Positions 20,309 to 25,399 of a stretch of 64,000 nt of DNA are shown here, piece by piece. Positions within the stretch are counted from its first letter, which is position 1. Each line of letters starts with the position of its first letter. The position numbers were made by a program, and so were the translations under genes. The stretch is taken from contig CALKCJ010000010.1 of NCBI GenBank assembly GCA_938082375.1, forward strand, positions 1-64,000. Direction: 5' to 3'. Under the pieces are notes generated by a model. That model had not been told where the DNA came from and ran no database searches. It saw nothing but the letters and a program-made list of their open reading frames with translations. The DNA is from an uncultured Thermomicrobiaceae bacterium. Its GTDB lineage: Bacteria > Chloroflexota > Chloroflexia > Thermomicrobiales > Thermomicrobiaceae.

Positions 20309-22516
20309 GTGTTCCGTTGGATTGGGAGGCAATCGTACCGGCACCGGTGGTTTGTCATCGCGGCCTGGATCGTCTTCTTCCTCCTCACGCTTCCCTTCTT
20401 ACCCCGCGTCTCGAGTGCGCTTGAAGTCGGTGGCTTCTCCAGCCCGCACACCGAAGCGGCCCGCGCCCGGGCGCTGCTCGAGCAGGAGATCCCTGACTAC
20501 AGCCCTGCCACGTTGATCGTTCTCTTCAGCCACCCTCGTCTCAAGCCCACCGACCCCGCGTTCATCGAGCAGGCGCACCGTGCCCTCAGCCAGCTCGCGA
20601 GCATCCCCGAGATCGGGAGCATCTCCTGGTTCGACCAGAACCCGAGCCAGATCGCGCCGGACGGGTCGCTGGCCTACGCACTCGTGCGGATCAACCTCCC
20701 CCCAGAAGAGTCCCAACGGCTGAAGGACGAGATCGAGCGGTCGATCATTCCCACCGAGCTCGAGGTTAGGCTGGCGGGCTCGCCGGTCTTTTACGCCGAC
20801 CTGGAGACCGTGACCGAGCACGACCTGCGGCGAGCCGAGCTGATCGCCTTCCCCTTCGCTTTGGCCGCTCTGGTCTTCGTTTTCGGCAGTCTGGTCGCCG
20901 CTGGTGTCCCGCTGGCCGTCGGCGGAGTGAGCGTGGCGATCGTGCTGGCGCTGGTCTACGCCATCACTCGTGTGACCGAGCTCTCCATCTTCACGCTCAA
21001 CGTCGCCACCCTGCTCGGGTTAGGGCTGGCTATCGACTACTCACTCTTCATCGTCAGCCGGTTCCGCGAGGAACTCGAGCGCGGCACCGTGGCGCGCGCT
21101 GTCGAGGTCACCACCGCCACCGCTGGCCGGGCGGTCTTCTTCTCCGGGCTGACCGTGCTCATCGGGTTGAGCGGGCTGGCATTTTTCGAGTTCCTGTTCA
21201 TGCGCTCGGTCGGGATCGCTGGCGTGCTGGTCGTCCTGGTCGCGGTCTCGGCTGCGCTGACGCTGCTGCCGGCCATCCTTGGCAGCCTCGGCCACCGTAT
21301 CACCGCGCTGACGGTGCACCGCCGCGCGGCCGAGACCGGCGCCTTCTGGGTACGAGTCTCTGATGCAGTCATGACGCACCCCTGGCGGGTCGCGATCCCG
21401 GTGGTCGTGCTCCTCTTGACCCTTGGGGCACCCTTCCGGCACGTCCGGCTAAGCTCACCCGACGCGACGATCCTTCCAACGACGACGCCCTCGCGCCAGG
21501 CGTTCGAGCGCTTCCGCGCTGCCTTCGGCGACGGTGCACTCTCGCCCATCATCGTGGCCGTGCAGAGCGAGCGCCCGGTGAACGACCCGCAGACGATCGC
21601 TGCCCTCTACGACCTGACTCGGCGGATCGCGGCCGACCCGCGCGTCGCGAGCATCTCCAGTATCGTCACCATCGACCCGCGAATCTCGCTGGGCCAGTAC
21701 CAGCTCCTCTATGCTGAGCCGTCGCTCATCCACGACCCGGTGATCGCCAATGCCTACCGGCAACTGGCCGGTCAGCACGTCGCGGCTATCTATGTCTATA
21801 CCGACGCCCTCCCAGCGAGTGACCAGGCGAAGGCACTGCTCCAGACCATCCGAGCGATGGATCCCGGGCCAGGGTTACGCATGCTGGTGGACGGCGGTAC
21901 TGCGGAGATCGTCGACGTGGTCGACCTGATGTACAGCGAGTTCCCCTATGCCGCGCTGACTGTGGTCGTCGCGACCTACGTCGTGCTCTTCTTTCTGCTC
22001 CGCTCCGTACTCCTGCCGCTCAAGGCGGTCATCCTCAACGCACTGAGCCTGACCGCGAGCTACGGGGCACTCGTCTTTGTCTTTCAGGACGGCCATCTGA
22101 ACAGCCTGCTCCGCTTCCAGCCGCTCGGGTTCATCGAGGCCTCGCTGCCGATCGTCATGTTCTGCCTGCTGTTCGGCCTGAGTATGGACTACGAGGTCTT
22201 CCTCCTCAGCCGCGTCCGCGAGGCCTGGGATCAGACCGGCGACAACCGGCAAGCCGTGGCCACCGGCTTGGCTCGGAGCGGCCGGATCATCACTGGAGCC
22301 GCGCTCATCCTCGTGGTCGTCGCCACCGCCTTCGTCAGCGCTGACGTCGTCCTGATCAAGGCACTCGGCCTCGGAATTGGGCTGGCGATCGCCCTCGACG
22401 CCAGCGTCGTCCGCGTGCTGCTCGTACCGGCAACCATGCGGCTGCTGGGAGACTGGAACTGGTGGGTGCCACGGGTGATGCTTCGGCTCCTCCCCGAGCG
22501 GGGTTGGGAACACTAG
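20309..22516 (+). CDS. MMPL/RND-family membrane transporter
   Basis: A 735-aa polytopic membrane protein with the duplicated MMPL architecture: TM1 (FVIAAWIVFFLLTLPFL), a large extracytoplasmic loop, then about five helices. These include GLGLAIDYSLFIVSRFREEL in the first half and its counterpart GLSMDYEVFLLSRVREAW in the second, the conserved Asp-Tyr elements of the proton relay in this family. Family members export lipids or hydrophobic compounds. I start at GTG 20309, seven bases after GGGGAGA, since residues before it have low-complexity composition. The CrtC/AttH-like lipoprotein begins 2 bp after the stop, implying a functional pair acting on a lipid or carotenoid-type substrate (inference). 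Confidence 0.9.
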   Translation: MFRWIGRQSYRHRWFVIAAWIVFFLLTLPFLPRVSSALEVGGFSSPHTEAARARALLEQEIPDYSPATLIVLFSHPRLKPTDPAFIEQAHRALSQLASIPEIGSISWFDQNPSQIAPDGSLAYALVRINLPPEESQRLKDEIERSIIPTELEVRLAGSPVFYADLETVTEHDLRRAELIAFPFALAALVFVFGSLVAAGVPLAVGGVSVAIVLALVYAITRVTELSIFTLNVATLLGLGLAIDYSLFIVSRFREELERGTVARAVEVTTATAGRAVFFSGLTVLIGLSGLAFFEFLFMRSVGIAGVLVVLVAVSAALTLLPAILGSLGHRITALTVHRRAAETGAFWVRVSDAVMTHPWRVAIPVVVLLLTLGAPFRHVRLSSPDATILPTTTPSRQAFERFRAAFGDGALSPIIVAVQSERPVNDPQTIAALYDLTRRIAADPRVASISSIVTIDPRISLGQYQLLYAEPSLIHDPVIANAYRQLAGQHVAAIYVYTDALPASDQAKALLQTIRAMDPGPGLRMLVDGGTAEIVDVVDLMYSEFPYAALTVVVATYVVLFFLLRSVLLPLKAVILNALSLTASYGALVFVFQDGHLNSLLRFQPLGFIEASLPIVMFCLLFGLSMDYEVFLLSRVREAWDQTGDNRQAVATGLARSGRIITGAALILVVVATAFVSADVVLIKALGLGIGLAIALDASVVRVLLVPATMRLLGDWNWWVPRVMLRLLPERGWEH

Positions 22517-22518
22517 GT

Positions 22519-23658
22519 ATGCGGCGACTCCTGCTTATGAACCTGTGCCTCACGCTGCTGGTGGCCGCGTGCGGTGCTGACCGCGCTGGCACACCCAGCG
22601 CCTCGCCGCAGCCAGTAGCCTCCTCTGCCGAACGCCCAGCCAGCCTGTTCCTCACGCCGGTGCCAGCGCCCCAGCCGATACGTTTCCCGCGTGACCTTGG
22701 CCCGCACGACGTCCTGACCGAGTGGTGGTACTACACCGGTCACCTCGCCGACGCGAGCGGCAGGCAATTCGGCTTCGAGTTCGTGGTCTTCCAGGGGCAA
22801 CGGTTCGGCTATCCCACCGCGTACGCTGCCCATTTCGCGATCACCGACCTCCAGCGCCGGGCGTTCCGCTGGGCCGAGCGAACCGCCGTTGGGCTAAGAC
22901 CGGGACACGAGCCTCCTGTCGTTTTACGCGTGGCCGAATGGCAACTCGAGCTTGGGACGAGTGAAGACCGGATCCAGGCGATGATGCCCGGGTACGCGAT
23001 CACCCTCAACCTGCGCGACACCAAGCCACCGGTGCTCCACGACGAGGACGGCTACTTCACCTGGGCACCGGAGACCGGCTCGTACTACTATTCGCGTACC
23101 CGGCTGGAAGCGACCGGCACCCTGAGCGTCGACGGGCAGTCACTGGCCGTGACCGGCCAGGCCTGGATGGATCACCAGTGGGGCAACTTCCTCCTGGCCG
23201 GCCGCGGCGGCTGGAACTGGTTCGCGATCCAGCTCGACGATGGCCGCGAGCTGATGCTCTGGAACACCCACGACGGCGCGGGGCATGTCGTCTTCGGGAG
23301 CGGCACGCTCGTGCAGCCCGACGGCTCAGCGGTCTACCTGCGCGGCAACGACTTCGCTGTCGCCGCAACCGGCCAGTGGACAAGCCCGCACACCGGTGCG
23401 ACGTACCCTTCCGGGTGGATCGTGGAACTCCCTGCCGAACGCCTCAGACTGACGGTTACCCCCCTCCTTCTCGATCAGGAGCTACAGGCCGTCGCATCGA
23501 CCGGCGTGATTTATTGGGAAGGCGCGGTCGAGGTGCATGGCCTCGACGACAGCCGGCCGGTAGCTGGCCTCGGCTACGTGGAGCTGACTGGCTACGCCTC
23601 CAGCTCCGGAGGCGAGCACGTGGCTACCCATCGGCCACCCTCTCCGCCTCTGTCGTAA
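22519..23658 (+). CDS. CrtC/AttH-like lipocalin-fold lipoprotein
   Basis: A 379-aa exported lipoprotein; the signal peptide ends in lipobox LLVAACG. The mature part matches the AttH/hydroxyneurosporene synthase (CrtC) fold: DVLTEWWYYTGHLAD, FGFEFVVFQGQRFG, YYYSRTRLEATGTL, GQAWMDHQWGNFLL and WNWFAIQLDDGRELMLWN, then a second beta domain with GYVELTGYAS at the end. CrtC hydrates carotenoids, but lipid-anchored AttH-like members usually have no proven activity. It is translationally coupled to the upstream MMPL transporter (2 bp between stop and ATG). Confidence 0.85.
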   Translation: MRRLLLMNLCLTLLVAACGADRAGTPSASPQPVASSAERPASLFLTPVPAPQPIRFPRDLGPHDVLTEWWYYTGHLADASGRQFGFEFVVFQGQRFGYPTAYAAHFAITDLQRRAFRWAERTAVGLRPGHEPPVVLRVAEWQLELGTSEDRIQAMMPGYAITLNLRDTKPPVLHDEDGYFTWAPETGSYYYSRTRLEATGTLSVDGQSLAVTGQAWMDHQWGNFLLAGRGGWNWFAIQLDDGRELMLWNTHDGAGHVVFGSGTLVQPDGSAVYLRGNDFAVAATGQWTSPHTGATYPSGWIVELPAERLRLTVTPLLLDQELQAVASTGVIYWEGAVEVHGLDDSRPVAGLGYVELTGYASSSGGEHVATHRPPSPPLS

Positions 23659-23695
23659 GCGTGTCCGCTGCTCCGGCCCGGAGACGCGGGGTGGC

Positions 23696-23724
23696 TTGAC
23701 ATCGCTGGCGCGATTGACTAAACT
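23696..23724 (+). promoter_or_regulatory. Strong sigma-70-type promoter
   Basis: TTGACA at 23696-23701, a 17-bp spacer, then TAAACT at 23719-23724. This is a perfect -35, an ideal spacing and a good -10. Transcription should start near 23731. No typical protein gene begins between it and the terminator at 23820. Confidence 0.85.
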
Positions 23725-23730
23725 TCCGTT

Positions 23731-23855
23731 TGACTACAGCTCGTACTGATGGACGCCAGGCTGGTTCGGCCTTCGCAGTAGCTACTGGGTAAGCATACTC
23801 CTCCCCTCCTCACAGCCCTGGCCCCGTCGGCCATGAGCCGGCGGGGCCGTCTTTT
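23731..23855 (+). ncRNA. Candidate structured small RNA or attenuator leader
   Basis: A transcript of about 125 nt bounded by the promoter at 23696-23724 and the intrinsic terminator at 23820-23855. It holds a stem UACUG/CAGUA (23744-23748 with 23776-23780) enclosing a hairpin AGGCU-GGUUC-GGCCU. CCAGGCUG (23756-23763) can alternatively pair with CAGCCCUGG (23813-23821), which overlaps the terminator, so an antiterminator switch is conceivable. A tiny ORF at 23749-23781 reads MDARLVRPSQ but has no ribosome-binding site. The next gene (ridA) starts 165 bp after the terminator, so this could be an independent sRNA or a leader controlling ridA. It matches no RNA family I can name. Confidence 0.55.
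23820..23855 (+). terminator. Intrinsic terminator
   Basis: A 12-bp stem, GGCCCCGTCGGC paired with GCCGGCGGGGCC with one G-U pair, a 5-nt loop CATGA, and a downstream GTCTTTTA tract. It ends the candidate RNA described above. Confidence 0.85.
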
Positions 23856-24020
23856 AACGCGCGACTAACGCGCGACTCGCTCTGGCGACCCAACGCGAGG
23901 GCCATCATGCCTTGCCAGTGGGAATCGGCACTCGGACACTACCAACCACTGGTGTGCTCACTTCCGGCGATGGTACAGTTCCGCGTTGTGCCTAAGGGCA
24001 ACCAACGAGGGAGACAGCGC

Positions 24021-24425
24021 GTGGCCGAGCGGATCCAGATCTCTTCAGGCACGGTCTGGGAAGAGCGAGCCGGCTACTCGCGCGCGGTGCGCGTCGGCGA
24101 CTTGGTGTTCGTCTCTGGCACCACTGCGACCGATGACCAGGGCAATGTCGTCGGCCGTGGCGATCCGGAGGCGCAGGCCCGCTTTATCCTCGAGAAGATC
24201 AAGCGGGCGCTCGAAGCTGCTGGCGCCTCGCTGTCCGACGTCGTGCGCACGCGCGTCTACGTCACCAACGTCGACCACTGGGAGGCCGTCGGGCGGGCCC
24301 ACGCCGCCTACTTCAGCGAGATCCGACCGGCGAACACGCTGGTTGAGGTCAGTCGGCTGGTGGGTTCGGACTACCTGGTCGAAATCGAGGCCGACGCAGT
24401 GATCGGCAGCGGAGCGAGCAGATGA
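24021..24425 (+). CDS. RidA family protein (reactive imine/enamine deaminase)
   Basis: A 134-aa RidA/YjgF/YER057c/UK114 homologue. VGDLVFVSGTTATDDQGNVV, then RTRVYVTNVDHWEAVGRAH with the conserved Arg-Val-Tyr segment, and RPANTLVEVSRLVGSDYLVEIEADAV cover the family core. These homotrimers hydrolyse imines such as 2-aminoacrylate released by PLP enzymes, and some members have other deaminase roles. The start is GTG 24021 behind GAGGGAG; earlier in-frame codons lack a ribosome-binding site. Its TGA overlaps the ATG of the next gene (ATGA), so it is translationally coupled to the LLM oxidoreductase. Confidence 0.9.
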   Translation: MAERIQISSGTVWEERAGYSRAVRVGDLVFVSGTTATDDQGNVVGRGDPEAQARFILEKIKRALEAAGASLSDVVRTRVYVTNVDHWEAVGRAHAAYFSEIRPANTLVEVSRLVGSDYLVEIEADAVIGSGASR

Positions 24426-25399
24426 GGTTCAGCGTCCGCCTGAACAACGACCTGCCGCTCCGCGAGTACGCGCGGCTGGCGCGTGCCGCCGAGGCCGCCG
24501 GATTCCACCAGATCTGGGTGAGCCACGACCTATTCCTGCGCAGCGCGCCGGTGCTCCTGACAACCATGCTCCAGGCGACGGAGCGGATTGCCGTTGGCAG
24601 CGGCGTGCTTAACCCGTACACGCTACACCCGGCCGAGATCGCCATGCTGGCGGCGACGCTGGACGAGCTGAGCAGCGGCCGCTTCCTGCTCGGCCTAGCT
24701 GCTGGAGCCGGCAACTTCCTCGAATGGATCGGTATCAACCAGGAGCGGCCGCTGGCGACGACCCGGCAGGCCGTCATCGCGGTTCGGGCCGTGCTCGCTG
24801 GCCAGCCGGCTCCCGGCTGGGGACCACAGGCATACCTGCGCTTTCTGGCCCACCCGGTGCCGATCTACCTTGGCGCCATGAGCCCAGGGATGCTGCGGCT
24901 CGCTGGCGAGCTGACCGACGGTGCTCTACCGCTGCTCTTTCCCCCGGAGCACTTCGCGACCGTCGCCCCGCTGGTCGCCGAGGGAGCGGCTCGCGCTGGC
25001 CGCTCCCTTGACGACATCGACCTGGCCGCCTGTGTCTGGTGCTCAATCGCGGATGACCGGGAGCAGGCCGAGGCTGTGCTGCGCGACAAAATCGCTTACT
25101 ACGGGGGTGCGCTCAGCCCGTTGATCCTCGAGCGCCTGGGACTGGCCCGGGAGGACTTCCAGCCGATCGAGCGGGCCCTACTCATCGAGCGCGATCCAGA
25201 GAAGGCCAGGCGACTGGTTAGCGCGCCGATGCTCCGGATCGGGCTGGTCGGCACGCCGAAGGAGATCCTCCCGCGGCTGGAGCGCCTAGTGGAGATGGGG
25301 GCCCGGCACCTGAGTTTCGGCCCGCCCCTCGGGCCGGATCCGGTCGCCGCCATCGAGCTGCTCGGCCGCGAGGTGCTACCTCACTTCGGCAACCGTTAG
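24422..25399 (+). CDS. LLM-class flavin (F420 or FMN)-dependent oxidoreductase
   Basis: A 325-aa TIM-barrel protein of the luciferase-like monooxygenase superfamily: LARAAEAAGFHQIWVSHDLF, TERIAVGSGVLNPYTLHPAEIA, LDELSSGRFLLGLAAGAGNF, then PVPIYLGAMSPGMLRLAGELTDG. This pattern, including the AGELTDG element, is closest to the methylene-H4MPT-reductase (Mer)-like subgroup that uses F420, but FMN use cannot be excluded. It is coupled to ridA by an ATGA overlap. Its stop overlaps the stop of the convergent gamma-glutamyltransferase gene. The substrate is unknown. Confidence 0.85.
   Translation: MRFSVRLNNDLPLREYARLARAAEAAGFHQIWVSHDLFLRSAPVLLTTMLQATERIAVGSGVLNPYTLHPAEIAMLAATLDELSSGRFLLGLAAGAGNFLEWIGINQERPLATTRQAVIAVRAVLAGQPAPGWGPQAYLRFLAHPVPIYLGAMSPGMLRLAGELTDGALPLLFPPEHFATVAPLVAEGAARAGRSLDDIDLAACVWCSIADDREQAEAVLRDKIAYYGGALSPLILERLGLAREDFQPIERALLIERDPEKARRLVSAPMLRIGLVGTPKEILPRLERLVEMGARHLSFGPPLGPDPVAAIELLGREVLPHFGNR

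Follow-up and report, generated by a model that had tools for sequence, protein, structure and literature searches.

A probable genus-specific small RNA gene with a near-invariant CU-rich block, a candidate anti-Shine-Dalgarno seed, between attH-like and ridA genes of Thermalbibacter and its sister species

The window analysed here, a stretch of 64,000 nt, lies on contig 10 of a 3.36 Mb Thermomicrobiaceae genome (G000; listed completeness 99.97%). Between an attH-like gene and ridA it carries a compact unit consisting of a promoter, a predicted short RNA and an intrinsic terminator. The features of the locus are the following.

22462 to 23658, plus strand: gene for an AttH/CrtC-like lipocalin-domain protein (Pfam PF07143 and PF17186), the upstream neighbour, which also adjoins the RNA unit in relatives
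23696 to 23724, plus strand: predicted promoter of the sRNA gene, TTGACA-17-TAAACT, from a consensus scan; conserved in four species
23732 to 23855, plus strand: predicted sRNA of ~124 nt with predicted ends; 123-124 nt from a conserved GAC to the T tract in 4/4 species
23744 to 23792, plus strand: variable central region (~50 nt) without conserved ORF or helix, as judged from identity, shuffles and ORF comparison
23793 to 23821, plus strand: CU-rich block GCAUACyCCUCCCCUCCUCACAGCCCUGG, the proposed anti-Shine-Dalgarno seed; one varying position in four species
23820 to 23855, plus strand: intrinsic terminator, a 12-pair stem (23820-23831 with 23837-23848) and a U tract, from a scan and the four-species alignment
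23971 to 23979, plus strand: putative extended −10 element of ridA's own promoter, TGGTACAGT; TGnTAnAGTTCCGCG is kept in 4/4 species
24021 to 24425, plus strand: ridA (RidA/YjgF family; Pfam PF01042), the downstream neighbour, which also adjoins the RNA unit in relatives

A sequence-only reading of this DNA had placed a promoter at 23696-23724 and a terminator at 23820-23855, and both were borne out. Within 22800-24800, TTGACA-17-TAAACT was the sole promoter-like site (1 vs 0.1 expected in shuffles). The pattern TTGACATCGnnnGCGnnnTTnACTAAnCTTC matched with 0 mismatches at every locus of the four species, whereas the reversed control gave no match; in the alignment of the four loci, both hexamers and a portion of the spacer are conserved. 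In G002 (HRbin26) the pattern occurs twice, as two contig ends carry one stretch: contigs C183 and C252 both end inside the variable part of the RNA and have the same promoter region, and we therefore count one locus, not two. The same 2 kb held three terminator-like sites (0.5 expected), among which that of the sRNA was by far the longest, and also the strongest. The scan placed a 13-pair hairpin at 23819-23849, followed by TCTTTT. All 12 pairs of the stem are kept in the four species, one of them via a C-G to U-G change.

The RNA between these sites is of constant length (123-124 nt in 4/4 species). Its 5′ end reads GAC(T/A)AC(A/G)G in the alignment of the four loci, and the predicted start sequence here is GACAACGG. 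The order attH-like gene, promoter, RNA, terminator and ridA was found in all four genomes of the genus that were examined, which comprise Thermalbibacter and sister species (Thermomicrobiaceae, Chloroflexota).

Outside the genus we obtained no convincing homologue. When the unit was searched against 100 relatives with BLASTN, only G001, G002 and G003 gave matches. With a covariance model built from the 3′ half and run on 150 genomes, the four genus members scored E values of 6e-25 to 9e-24 and the best match elsewhere 4e-5. The weaker matches listed (E 4e-5 to 0.03) were rejected, being CU-rich or GC-hairpin resemblances without the promoter and the exact motif. The match in G016 (GGTGCATACCCATCCCCCTCACAG), which belongs to another genus of the family, was likewise rejected; its surrounding sequence has no counterpart in its own genus. 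An exact-motif scan of 84,980 species returned three same-genus records (Thermalbibacter longus CFH 74404, bacterium HR26 and the Thermomicrobiaceae bin Tumba.bins.21) plus six unrelated records, which the model scored poorly. Since matches were confined to the genus and the weak outside matches were unconvincing, the RNA unit appears to be restricted to the genus of Thermalbibacter. In its own genome the RNA is single-copy, with no paralogue at ≤3 mismatches.

The sequence-only reading had recognised no known RNA family, and the database agrees: Rfam gave no match in the window at gathering or permissive thresholds, and the 6S RNA model (RF00013) found nothing in G000. The only bacterial sRNA models listed by the permissive scan, both insignificant, were sX13 (RF02232; 13.5 bits vs a gathering score of 50, E 3.4) and αr14 (RF02344; 12.6 bits vs 58.8, E 4.5). 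Moreover, the RNA has one linker CU stretch and no fold of the αr14 kind, with three hairpins, was predicted in the four sequences.

The conservation of the RNA is uneven. Over the central ~50 nt, species of one sub-clade were 76% identical and those of the other 67%, against 35-41% for comparisons across the two. The earlier reading had described a structured RNA, and beyond the terminator folding did not support this description: the whole RNA gave a z of about −1 relative to shuffles, and the 63 nt 5′ of the CU stretch were marginally less stable than their shuffles (z +1.05 here; +1.07, −0.12 and −1.26 in the three relatives). Two helices had been proposed. The UACUG/CAGUA stem (23744-23748 with 23776-23780) can be drawn on paper here and shows one double change, but two of the four species have gaps in part of it. 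The second helix, between CCAGGCUG (23756-23763) and CAGCCCUGG (23813-23821), can also form on paper in this sequence, but its G-C pair at alignment columns 28/92 is lost in 3/4 species. Jointly, the two helices were in no excess over shuffles (143 of 500 shuffles). Covariation, which the reading had named as a check, amounted in these two helices to the one double change in the UACUG stem and none in the second helix among four homologues. RNAalifold proposed small helices in the central region with four double changes, on which we do not rely, the alignment of the four sequences being unreliable. As read from the alignment, the pattern of conservation is at odds with an RNA that is structured or that switches.

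The previously noted 10-residue ORF (MDARLVRPSQ*) is present here but has no counterpart in the relatives, where the frames are unrelated or lack a start; with frames differing among the four species, a plus-strand leader peptide was rejected.

These results bear on the earlier alternative of an sRNA or a leader that switches the terminator before ridA. In the latter case, transcripts from 23696 would terminate at ~23850 unless the CCAGGCUG/CAGCCCUGG fold or a leader peptide permitted read-through into ridA. The RNA does sit upstream of ridA in 4/4 species, and four of the eight pairs of the alternative helix are invariant. However, the four species all have an intact terminator, the alternative helix is not kept among them, and a conserved antiterminator helix, as expected of a riboswitch or attenuator, was not found; the 10-residue ORF is not conserved, and no riboswitch family of Rfam matches. 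The DNA between the terminator and ridA aligns poorly at the four loci except for TGnTAnAGTTCCGCG (pattern TGnTAnAGT), which lies 3′ of the terminator and which we infer to be the extended −10 promoter element of ridA. With a conserved element of its own, ridA would not need the RNA as a leader. We consider it very unlikely that the RNA serves ridA in cis as a leader or attenuator, and retain from the earlier alternative the sRNA, which the retention of promoter, length, CU block and terminator in four species supports. As a target of the RNA, ridA was rejected too: duplexes with its ribosome-binding site were no better than those of shuffled seeds (135, 167, 134 and 53 of 300 shuffled seeds were as low).

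The most conserved part of the RNA is the CU-rich stretch at 23793-23821, which the earlier reading had not singled out. Its DNA form is GCATAC(T/C)CCTCCCCTCCTCACAGCCCTGG, with a single variable position among the four species. Block and promoter are almost invariant, unlike the divergent centre of the RNA and the remaining intergenic DNA. The CU core CCUCCCCUCCUC was predicted to be 72-96% unpaired at 37-70 °C (calculated at 37, 60 and 70 °C for all four species). Conservation and predicted accessibility of this stretch, together with an own promoter, an intrinsic terminator and the lack of a conserved ORF, are the features of C/CU-rich sRNAs that pair with Shine-Dalgarno sequences.

On the minus strand, positions 23790-23812 read GGAGGGGAGGAG-T-ATG, which in 4/4 species amounts to a perfect ribosome-binding site with its start codon, followed by unrelated and mostly very short frames. 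The block might thus belong not to an RNA gene but to the DNA or the minus strand, for instance by supplying a small gene there with its ribosome-binding site and start codon (GGAGGGGAGGAGUAUG), with the hairpin as terminator of attH transcripts, which it could also end. In each of the four species the CU block, read in reverse complement, offers a strong ribosome-binding site with an ATG behind it, yet the frames that follow comprise 4, 20, at least 54 and 7 codons of unrelated sequence, and a minus-strand small gene was rejected on this ground. Such an origin would also leave the conserved plus-strand promoter at constant distance, CAGCCC and the terminator unexplained, and seems to us quite improbable.

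We conclude that a real, conserved sRNA gene very probably exists at this locus, and that it is probably an ordinary yet previously undescribed genus-specific sRNA gene outside every described family. Our preferred explanation is an independent trans-acting sRNA gene of ~124 nt, specific to the Thermalbibacter genus. RNA polymerase would start near 23732 and stop at the hairpin 23820-23855. The exposed CCUCCCCUCCUCAC 5′ of the terminator would act as an anti-Shine-Dalgarno seed, pairing with the purine-rich ribosome-binding sites of a number of mRNAs, whose translation would thereby be blocked. The variable 5′ half may act as a spacer or contribute to stability, and the 3′ end of the RNA may be shielded by the terminator hairpin. 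Hfq (PF17209) was not detected in G000, so that pairing would proceed without Hfq or through a different chaperone. Transcription, exact ends and base-pairing action are all inferred from the DNA, and we regard a trans-acting sRNA with this anti-Shine-Dalgarno mechanism as reasonably likely.

Potential targets were sought as near-complementary sites. In a sample of 20 from the own genome, 10 lay before plausible start codons, a placement expected of any anti-Shine-Dalgarno sequence. The genes behind such sites, judged from translations and not by family search, included two solute-binding-protein-like genes and acetolactate-synthase-like, DsrE-like and murG-like ones. Complementary sites in the genomes were no commoner than those of a reversed control pattern, and none in the sample was common to both sub-clades; we therefore claim no target.

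The CU stretch might instead bind another regulatory RNA or an RNA-binding protein with CU specificity, the transcript being a sponge that does not pair with mRNAs; a protein-binding role would give an identical appearance. The lack of a target common to both sub-clades fits this explanation, as does the length of the conserved block, whose 29 nt, including GCAUAC and CAGCCC, exceed what Shine-Dalgarno pairing needs. However, there is no known candidate protein here, and sponges usually have repeated sites, whereas CCUCC occurs only twice in this RNA. We consider a sponge unlikely.

The anti-Shine-Dalgarno sRNA that we favour would have counterparts in other phyla. In alphaproteobacteria, αr14/NfeR1 has a proven anti-Shine-Dalgarno seed, the motif CCUCCUCCC being ultraconserved while its stems vary (PMC10746234). 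Like the RNA described here, it is a small intergenic RNA with an intrinsic terminator, an invariant CU motif (CCUCCUCCC there, CCUCCCCUCCUC here) and a variable remainder, and by this analogy both RNAs follow one pattern, in which the CU seed stays fixed while the rest changes freely. Unlike our candidate, with its one CU linker before the terminator, αr14 holds an unpaired CCUCCUCCC in each of three hairpins, and it belongs to another phylum. LhrC of Listeria pairs through proven CU-rich seeds, among them a single-stranded stretch between stem-loops, over the Shine-Dalgarno sequence, and Hfq is not required for target pairing (PMC4132741). The CU-rich single-stranded site complementary to the Shine-Dalgarno sequence is shared with our candidate, but LhrC has five copies and three redundant sites, compared with one copy and one site here.

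In Firmicutes, C-rich single-stranded regions of IsrR and FsrA pair with Shine-Dalgarno sequences, the IsrR seed being proven (PMC9410917). The candidate resembles them in having such a matching region, but no sequence relation to them was found (Rfam negative), and the IsrR regulon is one of iron sparing. Finally, sX13 of Xanthomonas represses mRNAs that carry G-rich motifs close to the start, by means of proven C-rich motifs, independently of Hfq (PMC3771888). A C-rich motif and a GC-rich host are common to both, as Hfq-independent pairing would be, whereas the C-rich motifs of sX13 occupy the apical loops of three stems. A more far-reaching idea, which we put forward tentatively, is that of a global anti-Shine-Dalgarno sRNA in a Chloroflexota thermophile without detectable Hfq: its single CU seed of 12-14 nt would mimic and extend the anti-Shine-Dalgarno tail of 16S rRNA and tune many mRNAs, as a convergent counterpart of αr14 and LhrC.

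If transcribed, the RNA is a candidate trans-acting sRNA in Thermomicrobia, in which post-transcriptional regulation appears little studied. A literature search returned no described trans-acting sRNA for this Chloroflexota lineage, and among the papers found for Thermomicrobium roseum and small RNA, none concerned sRNAs by title or abstract. If the proposed mechanism is true, it would support the repeated evolution of CU-rich anti-Shine-Dalgarno sRNAs able to work without Hfq. The gene, being single-copy and sharply bounded, could easily be tested in a cultured strain; Thermalbibacter longus CFH 74404 is a cultured relative in which the locus is present.

The intergenic slot itself is occupied differently elsewhere in the family. 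Rfam 15 matches at gathering score, SAM-I included, were absent from the window and from the syntenic loci of G001-G003. In other Thermomicrobiaceae genera, a SAM-I riboswitch (RF00162, 81-89 bits) lies 3′ of the attH-like gene, in the slot of the new RNA (L017:2756-2864, L018:2849-2958, L019:2674-2775 and L023:2650-2749), and is preceded by a TTGACA-type promoter in three of these four loci. The slot behind the attH-like gene is thus filled by different RNA elements in different genera of Thermomicrobiaceae.
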